Position numbers and translations under genes: made by a program
Shown: piece after piece, positions 47,821-52,281 of the stretch
How the letters are laid out: each line of letters begins with the position of its first letter
Numbering within the stretch: position 1 is the stretch's first letter
Source of the DNA: Lactobacillus gasseri ATCC 33323 = JCM 1131
Lineage (GTDB): Bacteria; Bacillota; Bacilli; Lactobacillales; Lactobacillaceae
Direction of reading: 5' to 3'
NCBI RefSeq assembly: GCF_000014425.1
Contig: NC_008530.1
Coordinates: 186,001 to 250,000, forward strand
DNA length: 64,000 nucleotides
The notes under the pieces: generated by a model
Seen by the model: only the letters and a program-made list of their open reading frames with translations
Databases searched by the model: none
What the model was told of the DNA's origin: nothing

Positions 47821-48309
47821 ATGACAAGAGACAGGATTCCGTGGAAGCAATATTTTATGATGCAGGCTTTAGTTATTGCACAACGTTCTACCTGTGATCG
47901 TGCCTTAGTCGGAAGTGTATTAGTTAAAGATGACCGGATGATTGCGACCGGATATAACGGTAGTGTTTCAGGACAGCCTCATTGTGATGATGTTGGTCAT
48001 CTGATGGTTGATGGACATTGCGTAAGAACAATTCACTCTGAAATGAATGCCTTAATTCAATGCGCTAAAAATGGTATTTCAACTGAAGGTACTGAAATTT
48101 ACGTTACTTATTTTCCTTGCTTTAATTGCAGTAAGTGCTTAGTGCAAGCTGGTATTAAGAAAATCAACTATTATTATGATTATCATGATAATCCTTTAGC
48201 CTTGAAATTATTGCGTGAAAAGGGCGTTGCAATTGAACAAGTAACGCTTGATCATAAATATGTTCAAAGCTTAGCAGACAGGCTGGAGAAGGCTGACAAT
48301 GAAAAATAA
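47821..48309 (+). CDS. comEB: dCMP deaminase family protein (ComEB-like)
   Basis: The 162-residue zinc deaminase has the motifs HSEMNAL (His and catalytic Glu) and PCFNCSKC (zinc cysteines), plus the [13 protein letters not shown] and GYNGSVSG segments of deoxycytidylate deaminases. It converts dCMP to dUMP for thymidylate synthesis. It overlaps the next gene by 11 bases. Other comE genes are not next to it, so the name reflects homology only. Confidence 0.9.
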
Positions 48310-48886
48310 AGTCATTGGTTTAGTGGCACTATTAATTTGCATATTAACATTGACTGCTAGCACAAAATCTTTTGTTAGTGATCCGCAAGGACTATTTGAT
48401 AATCAGACGAAAGAACTTGTTAATCAAAAAAATGAGAGCTATCAAAAGACTAAAACTAAACCTGAAATTCGCCTTTTAAGCTTAAAAGACAGCAAGGATT
48501 TAAATCGAATTCAGCCATTAAAGAATCAGATAATTATTGCCGTTGCCCTTCAAAATAAAAAGAAAAATGTTCAAATTATTGTTGGTAAGAATTATCAAGA
48601 TCTTTTAACTCAAAATAAATGTGGCAACATTATTCGGTATGCAGGGAATAAATTAAGGAGCAAAAAAGCAGCTACTTTTAATTCTGGGATTCGACTAGTT
48701 TTTAATGCTTGCGCTACTTTGGTTGCTCAAAAAGATAAGCTGTCTTATGATAAAAATTCGTTAACACAAGATGAACTGCAAAAAATAGATCATCCACAAA
48801 GTGTAAACTTGGTTTGGGGATTAGTAATTGCAGCTTTAATAAGTTTTGGATTAGTTCTATTTAAAAGCTTTCGAAAAAAGAAGTAG
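48299..48886 (+). CDS. TPM-domain-like membrane-anchored protein
   Basis: A signal-like N-terminal helix (about 4-22) is followed by an extracellular domain of about 130 residues that begins [20 protein letters not shown], the usual opening of TPM (YgcG-type) domains, and a C-terminal transmembrane helix (about 168-188) with a basic tail. TPM proteins often sit in the envelope; function is unclear. The final Gly-rich tail of larger relatives is absent. It overlaps comEB, so translation is coupled. Confidence 0.72.
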
Positions 48887-48890
48887 GGAC

Positions 48891-48919
48891 TTGACTAATT
48901 CTTAGTTAGCCGTTAAAGT
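48891..48919 (+). promoter_or_regulatory. Probable promoter of the M-box leader
   Basis: TTGACT and TAAAGT are separated by 17 bases, about 30 bases before the aptamer begins. Confidence 0.5.
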
Positions 48920-48949: not shown

Positions 48950-49158
48950 AACTGTTAGGTGAGACTCCTACGTGAACATATGCTGTCGCCCAGCAACATC
49001 CAGAGATGCCAACGGGTCAAACAGGGATCGTCGATATAAGGCCCTCCCCAGCCAGCTAGTTATTTTTAATAACCTTACGTCACGTAGTGTTAAAACTGAA
49101 CGACGAGTATAAAAATCGCTTGGATTTGAGCCGATGCAGTTTTTGCATCGGCCTTTTT
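48950..49158 (+). promoter_or_regulatory. M-box (ykoK-type) magnesium riboswitch with terminator
   Basis: Conserved M-box blocks appear in order: GTTAGGTGAGACTCCTACGT, GAACATATGCTGTCGCCCAG, ACATCCAGAGATGCCAACGG, GTCAAACAGGGATCGTCGAT and ATAAGGC. The leader ends with a perfect 9-bp hairpin GCCGATGCA / TGCATCGGC (49130-49152) and a T run. High Mg2+ should favour the terminator. It lies directly upstream of the half-length P-type ATPase gene and fills the 308-base gap. Confidence 0.93.
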
Positions 49159-49194
49159 GTTTGTTTGCTAGGTTCTTAAGAAAGGATGTTGAAG

Positions 49195-50184
49195 ATGTTC
49201 AAAATCAACACTTCCGGCACAAGAAATACTACAGACACCAAGCTGGTGCGCCGGATTGCATGCGAAGATAAGTTTGCGACGCTGCAACGATTAAAAACCT
49301 CAATTAGCGGCCTTCAAAGTAAAGATGCGAGGCAACGCTTAGCAAAGTACGGATCTAATGAAATAATAATTAAACATGATAAGACTAAACTTCACTATTT
49401 GTTAAAGGCTTTTGTAACTCCTTTTTCCCTCGTTCTGCTTTTTTTAGCAATTGTAGCAATTTTTTTAAATTCTTCTCAACGTACTCTTAACCTAAGTCCA
49501 GCAATTTTTGTTTTAGCAATTTTATTTATTTCAGTAATTTTAACTGCTATGCAAAATATTCGTATCAATACTAATATTCAAAACTTGATAAATCGAATTT
49601 CTAGAACAACTCAAGTAATGCGTGATTGTGAACCACAGAAACTTTTAACTCGTGATCTAACAATTGGTGATGTGGTACTACTTAAAGCTGGAGATATTGT
49701 TCCAGCGGACGTTAAATTACTCAAAAGTAATGATTTAGAATGTTCATTACTTGGTGAAGAAGATACTGTGAAAAAGAGAGCTACTAATTACACTGGCAAA
49801 AACAATAACTTAGATTACGCTAATATTTTATATGCAGGCACAATTATTCTTTCAGGTTCAGGAATTGGCGTTGTTTTTGCGACTGGTAAAGAAACTGTTT
49901 TTGGAAAAATAGCTCAAAATCTTTCTAAGATTAATCTAGAAAACAATCTTTTTAATTTTAGTATGAAAAAATTAACTAAAATCTTTTTGACATTAATCCT
50001 GATTATTGTTCCAGTTGTTTTGCTGATTAATGAAATAATACGTGGCAATTGGGAAAATGCTTTAATTTTCGCTATGGCAATTACTGTTGGTATAACGGCT
50101 GGAGTAATGCCGACAGCTATTGTAAATAATTTGGTAAAGGCCAATATCGATATGCCTAGGATTCGAGCGACATATGACAATTAA
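49195..50184 (+). CDS. Half-length MgtA-type P-type ATPase (TM1-4 and actuator domain only)
   Basis: ATG 49195 follows AAAGGA by eight bases; an ATG at 49186 lies too close. The 329-residue product aligns with the front of MgtA-type Mg2+ ATPases: cytoplasmic N-terminus (1-70), TM1-2 (about 72-91, 101-120), actuator domain (about 135-245) with GDVVLLKAGDIVPADVKLL and a TGES-position segment reading LGEE (187-190), then TM3-4 (about 261-280, 288-312). The M4 PEMLP motif is altered to AGVMP. It ends about 15 residues before the expected DKTGT phosphorylation site, and no continuation exists before metG. It therefore cannot be a complete pump. It is expressed behind an M-box and has its own terminator. 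Confidence 0.85.
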   Translation: MFKINTSGTRNTTDTKLVRRIACEDKFATLQRLKTSISGLQSKDARQRLAKYGSNEIIIKHDKTKLHYLLKAFVTPFSLVLLFLAIVAIFLNSSQRTLNLSPAIFVLAILFISVILTAMQNIRINTNIQNLINRISRTTQVMRDCEPQKLLTRDLTIGDVVLLKAGDIVPADVKLLKSNDLECSLLGEEDTVKKRATNYTGKNNNLDYANILYAGTIILSGSGIGVVFATGKETVFGKIAQNLSKINLENNLFNFSMKKLTKIFLTLILIIVPVVLLINEIIRGNWENALIFAMAITVGITAGVMPTAIVNNLVKANIDMPRIRATYDN

Positions 50185-50201
50185 TTATCTAAATGATTTG
50201 T

Positions 50202-50234
50202 AGGGATTCCGTATTTTACAGAATTCCTTTTTTT
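50202..50234 (+). terminator. Terminator of the half-length ATPase gene
   Basis: AGGGATTC and GAATTCCT (one G-T pair) with an 11-base loop and seven T, starting 18 bases after the stop. Confidence 0.72.
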
Positions 50235-50304: not shown

Positions 50305-52281
50305 ATGGCTGAAAAGAAAACTTTTTATATTACTACACCTATTTTCTATCCATCTGGAAAATTAACTATCGGTAATGCTTATACTGCGATTGCTGCTGAT
50401 GCAATGACGCGTTATAAAAAATCTCGTGGTTTTGATACCTTCTTTTTAACAGGTACTGATGAACATGGCTTGAAGATTGAACAAAAAGCTGAAGCACAAG
50501 GTATTAAACCTCAAGAGTTTGTGGACAAAATGGCAGCTTCTTATAAAGAGTTATGGAAGATGCTAGATGTTTCTTATGATCGTTTCATTAGAACAACTGA
50601 CGAAGACCACGTTAAGGCTGTGCAAAAGATTTTTGAAAAGCTGTTAAAGCAAGGCGATATTTACTTAGGTGAATATACTGGTTGGTATTCAGTTGAAGAT
50701 GAAGAATACTTTACTGAATCACAACTTGCTGAAGTTTATAGAGATGATGATGGTAACGTTATTGGCGGAAAAGCTCCATCTGGTCATGAAGTTCGTTTGG
50801 TTAAAGAGCCTTCATACTTCTTTAGAATGAGTAAATATGCTGATCGACTTTTACAGTATTATAAGGATCATCCTGACTTTATCTTGCCACACTCTCGTGA
50901 AAAGGAAATGGTTAATAACTTTATCAAGCCAGGTCTAGAAGACTTGTCAGTAACTCGTACAACAGTTGACTGGGGAATTCCTGTGCCTAGTGATCCTAAA
51001 CACGTTGTTTACGTTTGGATAGATGCTTTGTCAAACTATATTACTGCGCTTGGTTATGGCTCAGATGATGATTCATTATTTAAGAAATACTGGCCAGCTG
51101 ATGTTCATTTAGTAGGTAAGGAAATTGTTCGTTTCCACACAATTTATTGGCCAATTATGTTAATGGCATTAGACTTGCCACTTCCTAAGCAGATTTTTGG
51201 CCATGGCTGGGTCTTAATGAGGGACGGCAAGATGTCTAAGTCTAAAGGTAATGCTGTTTATCCAGAAATGATTGCTAAGCGTTACGGATTAGACGCACTT
51301 CGTTACTACTTGATGCGTGCAATTCCATTTGGTTCAGATGGTATCTTTACTCCTGAGGATTTCGTTGAGAGAGTTAACTTTGATTTGGCTAATGACTTAG
51401 GTAACTTGTTGAACAGAACTGTTTCAATGATTAACCAATATCAAGATGGTTACGTTGCACCAGTTGCAGCAGATCAAGATGAATTTGCTCAAGACTTGAT
51501 TAAGACAGCTAAGGAAACAATCGCTGAATATCAAAAGCAAATGGACGCTCTTCACTTCTCTCAAGCTTTAGACAGTGTTTGGAAGCTTATTTCTCGTGCA
51601 AATAAATATATTGATGAGACTACTCCTTGGACTTTGAATAAAGAAGGTAAGAGTGAAGAATTATCAAAAGTAATGTCTAACCTAGCTGAAAGTCTGCGTT
51701 TAGTTGCTATTTTAATTGCACCAGTAATGACTCAAAGCCCAGTTAAAATGTTTAACCAACTTGGTCTTGATTGGAATAAAGAAGCTCAAAAGAAACTTGA
51801 ATTTGGCGCTTTTGACTGGGACATTAAAGTAACTGAAAAACCAACTCCAATCTTCCCAAGACTTAAGAATGATGTTGAAGTTAAATACATTAAGGAAGAA
51901 ATGAAGAAGGCAAAGCCAAAGAAGAAGACTAGAAGCCAGCAAAAAGAAGAGAAACATATTACGATTGATGACTTTGACAAAGTAAAGATTCAAGTTGGCC
52001 AAATTTTATCAGTTGAACCGGTAAAGGGTTCAAGTAAGCTTTTAATGTTTAAGCTAGATTTTGGCGATGGAAATGAACGTCAAATTTTGAGTGGTATTCG
52101 TAAGTTTTATCCAGATGCAAGTGAATTGTTAGATAAAAAAGTACTAGCAGTAACTAACTTGAAGCCACGTAAGATGTTAGGTCATGAAAGTCAAGGTATG
52201 CTTTTATCTAGTGAAAAAGATGGCCAAGTCAAATTAGCTCTTGTAGGCGATGAACATGAAGTTGGGGCTGAATTAGGCTAA
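50305..52281 (+). CDS. metG: Methionyl-tRNA synthetase
   Basis: ATG 50305 follows AGAGGAAG; the frame extends upstream through the promoter and is not used. The 658-residue class I enzyme has GKLTIGNAYTAI at the HIGH position, KMSKS in DGKMSKSKGN, and a C-terminal tRNA-binding OB fold (about 555-658, VKIQVGQILSVEPVKGSSKLL). It charges initiator and elongator tRNA-Met. It starts a run of overlapping genes: tatD begins in its stop codon. Confidence 0.96.
   Translation: MAEKKTFYITTPIFYPSGKLTIGNAYTAIAADAMTRYKKSRGFDTFFLTGTDEHGLKIEQKAEAQGIKPQEFVDKMAASYKELWKMLDVSYDRFIRTTDEDHVKAVQKIFEKLLKQGDIYLGEYTGWYSVEDEEYFTESQLAEVYRDDDGNVIGGKAPSGHEVRLVKEPSYFFRMSKYADRLLQYYKDHPDFILPHSREKEMVNNFIKPGLEDLSVTRTTVDWGIPVPSDPKHVVYVWIDALSNYITALGYGSDDDSLFKKYWPADVHLVGKEIVRFHTIYWPIMLMALDLPLPKQIFGHGWVLMRDGKMSKSKGNAVYPEMIAKRYGLDALRYYLMRAIPFGSDGIFTPEDFVERVNFDLANDLGNLLNRTVSMINQYQDGYVAPVAADQDEFAQDLIKTAKETIAEYQKQMDALHFSQALDSVWKLISRANKYIDETTPWTLNKEGKSEELSKVMSNLAESLRLVAILIAPVMTQSPVKMFNQLGLDWNKEAQKKLEFGAFDWDIKVTEKPTPIFPRLKNDVEVKYIKEEMKKAKPKKKTRSQQKEEKHITIDDFDKVKIQVGQILSVEPVKGSSKLLMFKLDFGDGNERQILSGIRKFYPDASELLDKKVLAVTNLKPRKMLGHESQGMLLSSEKDGQVKLALVGDEHEVGAELG

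Follow-up and report, generated by a model that had tools for sequence, protein, structure and literature searches.

P-type ATPases are generally regarded as machines that work as a whole or not at all. Among them, the Mg2+ pump MgtA is the closest described relative of the gene considered here, which stands behind an M-box, a Mg2+ riboswitch leader that low Mg2+ is expected to open. The N-terminal tail of Escherichia coli MgtA is described in a structural report (PMC10925321) as poorly conserved and probably regulatory, with contacts to transmembrane helices (TM) 2 and 4 and to the actuator (A) and phosphorylation (P) domains. Here, we analyze a 64,000-nucleotide stretch of the Lactobacillus gasseri ATCC 33323 = JCM 1131 genome (contig NC_008530.1, positions 186,001 to 250,000 of the forward strand; the whole stretch is called the window) that carries, between an M-box and metG, a gene encoding only the front part of an MgtA-type pump. 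The new data indicate, with high confidence, that this half-MgtA gene (hereafter the half) is kept as a functional protein, as a preliminary description of the locus had proposed: its frame is open in 11 genomes, each with an M-box ahead of it, and its ratio of nonsynonymous to synonymous change (dN/dS) is low.

The half has no internal stop and, as described before, comprises TM1-4 and the actuator domain in 329 residues when read from ATG 49195, a more likely start than 49186 because it is better spaced from the AAAGGA motif read directly upstream. A Pfam search of the protein returned Cation_ATPase_N and E1-E2_ATPase only. Among NCBIfam models, TIGR01524 (Mg2+ P-type ATPase) matches best, with 182.1 bits over model positions 20-319 of 867, which is below its equivalog cut-off of 610.75 bits. 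In the alignment, the end of the protein lies 15 residues (MNSIQNFGSADILCT in the intact paralogue) ahead of the DKTGT aspartate, confirming the earlier estimate. The actuator domain stands in its usual arrangement with TM1-4, and the DKTGT phosphorylation site and the P and nucleotide-binding (N) domains are absent from the half. Since it lacks these parts, the protein is predicted to be unable to form a phospho-enzyme and thus to pump. The TGES/NGES actuator loop is likewise missing, reading LGEED in the window's genome, TNEGS or MDEDN in a second type of half and TGQ in a third. The TM4 ion site TPEMLP is changed in all three types, to TAGVMP in the window's genome (TAEVMP or MAEVMP in near kin), TSDAVP and VPEILS, respectively. 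The structure model of the half matches P-type pumps, MgtA included.

The search for the half covered 75 genomes of the genus, including that of the window (G000; 1.89 Mb, single contig). An open half of 331-346 amino acids (aa) with nearly the same end occupies the same place in 11 of them (G000, G033, G069, G071, G020, G070, G059, G023, G022, G067 and G017), with trpS-comEB-TPM upstream, metG-tatD downstream and an M-box ahead of the gene in every case, so that the shared length, C-terminal end and leader that the preliminary description had proposed to look for in relatives are all present. The gene and metG lie on one contig and strand in 65 of 67 genomes (G002 and G058 being the exceptions), and the distance from gene start to metG is 1115-1147 bases in the 11 half-bearing genomes, compared with 2.73-2.83 kb in 44 of the 54 genomes with a full-length gene and 2.98-6.88 kb in the remaining 10. 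When genomes are ranked by the identity of their metG to that of the window, the top nine (96-98%) all carry the half, and the next, at 90%, are full-length. Because of this, and because most other species are full-length here, the ancestral state at the locus is, on sequence comparison, a full-length mgtA and the truncation is old. Full-length copies in close relatives had been named beforehand as the mark of a recent truncated pseudogene; such copies do occur in most other species, but not in the nine nearest genomes.

A tree of 80 rows was built after leaving out ten near-duplicates and two incomplete rows, and the copy of genome G008 was counted in no group. All 10 half rows come together in a single clade (98/90; 100% of the 200 bootstrap trees), which adjoins the full-length copies of G038, G043 and G044. 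The tree program warned that the branch joining G067 and G017 to G008 may reflect a long-branch effect. A recent, strain-level truncation was rejected, as the same half is found in 11 genomes and in one clade. Outside the genus, 397 genomes of the family yielded no half among their matches at E <= 1e-45, although more distant halves could escape this threshold, and no paper on the gene was found in the literature searched (openly licensed PMC papers). The half of G017 is contained whole in the L. hominis protein P0036. At the same locus of G017 (L050), metG is 98% identical to that of the window, trpS 93% and tatD 84%, and metG looks to have been horizontally replaced beside the half.

Selection on the half was assessed in 12 pairs, and dN/dS lies at 0.09-0.18 in eight of them (G000-G033 0.113, G000-G069 0.165, G000-G071 0.175, G033-G071 0.162, G022-G023 0.093, G022-G059 0.164, G020-G023 0.162 and G067-G017 0.120) and at 0-0.37 over all. 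Of the other pairs, G000-G020 gives 0.300 at a silent divergence of about 1, G069-G071 and G023-G059 give 0.368 and 0.274 from under ten differences each, and G070-G059 differs at two silent sites alone. In Fisher tests of five pairs, p ranges from 8e-8 to 9e-39. The values are thus well below the dN/dS near 1 that had been named as the sign of a recent pseudogene, and neither this sign nor a broken frame was found in the 11 genomes; the frame is broken in G008. Among the flanking genes, the TPM-domain gene (window 48299-48886) is itself fast-evolving, with a proportion of nonsynonymous differences of 0.08-0.13 in five wider pairs.

The distribution of constraint along the protein points to what has been kept. 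Mean conservation was compared in 8 chosen half rows and 29 chosen intact rows of a 56-row alignment (A1). In the N-terminal tail, it reaches 0.81 in the halves versus 0.45 in the pumps for residues 4-28 and 0.90 versus 0.59 for residues 29-60, with the pump values lowered a little because gaps were scored as not conserved. The order is reversed in the helices (halves versus pumps: TM1 0.64 and 0.77, TM2 0.57 and 0.84, TM3 0.62 and 0.86, TM4 0.68 and 0.94) and in the catalytic-loop stretch 188-212 (0.56 versus 0.73), and actuator residues 213-247 are about equal (0.81 versus 0.82). As judged from this alignment, the tail is the tightest part of the halves yet the loosest of the pumps, and TM4, tightest in the pumps, is eroded together with the TGES loop; the halves would thereby have retained the tail and lost the ion and phosphate chemistry.

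The available data are compatible with a model in which the comEB-TPM/metG site once held a normal gene for a Mg2+-importing P-type ATPase. In an ancestor of the half-bearing Lactobacillus species, the 3' two thirds of this gene would have been lost, and what was left would have been retained as a protein with a new job. Low Mg2+ would free the leader terminator, so that the half would be made in Mg2+-starved cells and would sit in the membrane by its four helices. From there, the cytosolic N-terminal tail and the actuator domain may bind and regulate a partner, such as a membrane protein, a protease or a lipid, which need not be MgtA. We give an even chance to this reading of the half as a membrane-anchored regulator acting through its tail and actuator domain, with a pore, a partner of MgtA and an RNA as the alternatives. 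Of the functions suggested in the preliminary description, a regulator fits best, and an ATPase subunit (as far as MgtA is concerned) and a channel-like module have lost ground.

Several observations weigh against this reading. The half evolves faster than its flanking genes (dN/dS 0.09-0.30 in the better resolved pairs versus 0.00-0.11), its copy in G008 is broken by two TAA codons, and shorter variants occur in the database (P0012, 261 aa, 39 members; P0013, 211 aa, 35; P0142, 258 aa, 36), which may be broken alleles or contig-edge fragments. Actuator residues 125-187 are less conserved in the halves than in the pumps (0.74 versus 0.82), and with a mean pLDDT of only 68.5, confidence in the predicted fold is moderate. 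The first three of these would also be expected of an ordinary decaying pseudogene that by chance is still open, an explanation that is largely refuted by the low dN/dS in eight of the 12 pairs, the Fisher tests and the 11 open frames, and that a single old truncation with a kept leader also speaks against; we regard it as very improbable. Separately, the database half variants P0003-P0005 and P0007-P0011 carry small in-frame deletions, mostly in the TM1-TM2 region.

A partnership with an intact pump encoded elsewhere, in which the half would act as a regulatory or dominant-negative subunit of MgtA, is suggested by the intact MgtA with its own M-box in 8 of the 11 half-bearing genomes, where both proteins could be induced together. 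This reading is weakened by two genomes that retain the half and in which no MgtA was found: G020, a single contig and 100% complete, and G017, in 40 contigs and 99% complete. The end branch of G020 (0.098) is not longer than the stem of its sister (0.18), and there is thus no sign of relaxation where MgtA was not found. Moreover, the dimer of E. coli MgtA described in PMC10925321 uses the N and P domains, and the MgtA dimers and tetramers described in a second report (PMC13174805) use M7 and M10, all of which are absent from the half. We consider an MgtA partnership unlikely; the half may still be a partner of another, non-MgtA ATPase. An ion leak or channel module formed by TM1-4, analogous to S1T, a truncated isoform of SERCA1, would agree with the four long helices that the structure model places like TM1-4. 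It is disfavored since the membrane helices rank with the less conserved regions of the halves, TM1 to TM4 all falling below the intact pumps and the TM4 motif being changed in every type, and its chance appears slim.

The selected unit might also be mainly an RNA, formed by the M-box leader and the first ~55 codons, with the protein secondary. Specifically, the proportion of silent-site differences (pS) is 0.03-0.21 in these codons and 0.09-0.65 in the rest of the gene in seven half pairs, and the ratio of the two is 0.15-0.37; as some genomes recur among these pairs, they are not independent of one another. The reduction is significant in six pairs (p from 0.0074 to 3e-8) and not in G022-G023 (p 0.19), and the G+C content at third codon positions (GC3) of the first 165 bases averages 0.42 (0.29-0.53) versus 0.21 in the rest. 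The same ratio is 0.45-2.45 in 26 control comparisons (seven of unlinked mgtA, seven of linked full-length mgtA and 12 flanking-gene pairs), with a milder 5'-end effect in metG (0.52-0.63) and some mgtA pairs (0.45-0.72). Nevertheless, the comEB control of G000-G033 reaches the range of the halves (0.086 versus 0.283, ratio 0.30, 3 of 35 sites), and the first 30 codons of unlinked mgtA are likewise low in G000-G059 (0.22). Folding energy is ordinary in the four halves examined (z 0.06, -0.08, -1.14 and -0.33) and in the leader plus 5' end (-0.40), and only weak covariation is seen (2 of 49 pairs, covariation term +0.8). An RNA structure as the source of the silent-site constraint is therefore not supported by either measure, and, as the remaining codons are under strong amino-acid constraint, a mainly RNA-based unit is quite unlikely. 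Exchange of the leader between species by recombination could possibly explain the pattern. An overlapping reading frame was rejected as the source of the constraint: across the six halves checked, none of the other frames of the initial 171 bases is open in every one, and a single reverse frame is open in G020 only. The other open reading frames listed in the window are short.

The statement that no second half is present near the locus extends to the whole window genome, in which a C-terminal MgtA query found no second half of a split pump. The query matched the intact MgtA elsewhere in G000 with 898 bits (68%), the next best match reaching 171 bits (31%). As this is the only strong C-terminal match, a split two-gene P-type ATPase was rejected. 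In G020 and G017 the best matches, at 175 bits (31%) and 178 bits (30%), lie in open frames of ~900 aa. Among ten genomes checked, CorA was found in all and MgtE in none, and CorA may carry basal Mg2+ uptake. The main CorA match of the window's genome (G000:C1:10264-11124, outside the window) contains one internal TAA and a second match is open, and the best CorA matches of the other nine genomes contain no internal TAA. Two further P-type ATPase loci of this genome lie outside the window. At one, the gene is broken up into two open frames, of 377 and 530 aa (G000:C1:1664088-1666330; 901-926 aa in relatives), and the other is a match that reads through seven stops (G000:C1:820389-821201), with open frames of 759-779 aa in relatives.

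The leader of the half (Table 1) bears out the M-box of the preliminary description, since RF00380 matches with 135.6 bits against a gathering threshold of 44 (E 2.2e-30), placing it in that family. It is near-invariant along ~170 bases in 10 genomes. A terminator scan of the leader found one hairpin versus 1.0 expected in shuffles, so chance could explain it; direct reading finds a hairpin and T tail at this place in 10 of 10 aligned leaders, that of G017 with one mismatch. The terminator hairpin is thus kept, and the leader is predicted to control transcription in a Mg2+-dependent manner. The promoter, in turn, had been called intact, a claim that is not supported beyond chance: the best upstream match (TTGACT-17-TAAAGT, 48891-48919) agrees at 9 of 12 positions, and the scanned region holds five such matches versus 5.9 expected. 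Downstream, direct reading agrees with the earlier account of a terminator 18 bases past the stop followed by metG, whose ATG is taken at 50305; the stem pairs 50202-50209 with 50221-50228 ahead of a run of T's. The terminator scan, with a loop limit of 8, did not report this hairpin.

Table 1 Features of the half-MgtA locus, in window positions
Feature	Position	Strand	Remarks
M-box (Mg2+) riboswitch aptamer, RF00380	48944..49115	+	Rfam full model 1-169; near-invariant across 10 half leaders
Intrinsic terminator, putative riboswitch expression platform	49130..49152	+	10-bp stem, 3-base loop, T tail
Probable ribosome-binding site AAAGGA, for ATG 49195	49181..49186	+	Read directly; invariant in 10 leaders
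Half-MgtA gene, open frame of 332 aa	49186..50184	+	N-terminal tail, TM1-2, actuator domain, TM3-4
First 55 codons, with the highest protein conservation and constrained silent sites	49186..49350	+	An RNA or DNA signal may overlap
Probable terminator after the half	50202..50234	+	AGGGATTC-11-GAATTCCT and T run, read directly

The halves are not the only altered copies at this site. Full-length copies of 886-896 aa with changed catalytic motifs occupy the same locus in 15 genomes (G003, G004, G005, G010, G013, G015, G019, G026, G028, G036, G042, G058, G068, G072 and G073; loci L054-L058, L060-L068 and L109), beside metG/TPM and with an M-box before each. The NGES loop is altered in all 15 (DGDS, DGDP, DSDS, NGDF, NGNS, DGKF, DGEF or DGDY, the glutamate being retained in the DGEF of G019 and G058), as is GDGIND. 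The TM6 aspartate is replaced by N in 12, and DKTGT reads DKTGI in four and EKTGF in G073, where E replaces the phosphorylated aspartate that the other 14 keep. Their dN/dS is 0.02-0.10 in eight of 10 pairs and not computable in two, with most silent sites near saturation, and they form a clade separate from the halves (93/50; 92% of bootstrap trees). These motif changes suggest that the altered copies have lost pumping and are possible pseudo-pumps.

Together, a half or an altered copy occupies the locus in 26 of 75 genomes, so that the annotation 'Mg2+-transporting ATPase' may here name non-transporting proteins. An intact mgtA is found elsewhere in 16 of these 26 and not in 10 (among them G070, only 71% complete), compared with a second intact copy in two of the 41 genomes whose copy at the locus is intact (G063, a 66% complete genome with two metG genes, and G074, in which the second copy is distant) and none in 39 (Fisher p 5e-7, each related genome entering the count separately). 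Another four genomes (G031, G040, G047 and G060) could not be classified, four have neither an intact nor an altered full copy here (G008, G039, G046 and G049), and in G038, G043 and G045, which were counted as intact, the TM6 motif carries E in place of D. The M-box pump locus might have turned twice into a non-pumping protein, by halving and by active-site erosion, to give Mg2+-starved cells a membrane receptor or regulator that needs neither ATP hydrolysis nor MgtA. On this view, the half would work through its N-terminal tail and actuator domain, and its first 55 codons would carry an RNA signal as well. We hold this combined reading to be rather doubtful, all the more so as the phosphorylated aspartate persists in 14 of the 15 altered copies.

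Taken together, a half without a catalytic domain, retained under a riboswitch from before at least 11 species diverged, suggests that the tail, the actuator domain and TM1-4 can function alone. As such, it offers a natural construct for the role of the MgtA N-terminal tail, a question that the structural report leaves open (PMC10925321). The half shares its N-terminal tail, TM1-4 and actuator fold with MgtA/MgtB-type pumps (TIGR01524), its best structural and sequence matches, and an upstream M-box with intact Lactobacillus mgtA, but it lacks the P and N domains, TM5-10 and the TGES loop, and its TM4 TPE motif is changed. With the altered full-length MgtA of 15 genomes it has in common the site, the M-box, the altered catalytic motifs and purifying selection; these copies differ in their full length, in the phosphorylated aspartate kept by all but one and in forming a separate clade. 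MgtS-type small regulators, in turn, are not known to derive from the pump. They resemble the half in being membrane-linked and are described as affecting MgtA stability (PMC10925321), but they are under 50 residues long, and the half persists where no MgtA was found. Truncated SERCA1 (S1T), described as a stress-induced isoform of a P-type pump (PMC7760721), is likewise truncated; it is, however, an isoform of an intact human gene, whereas the half is a separate bacterial gene for which a leak function would be proposed by analogy.
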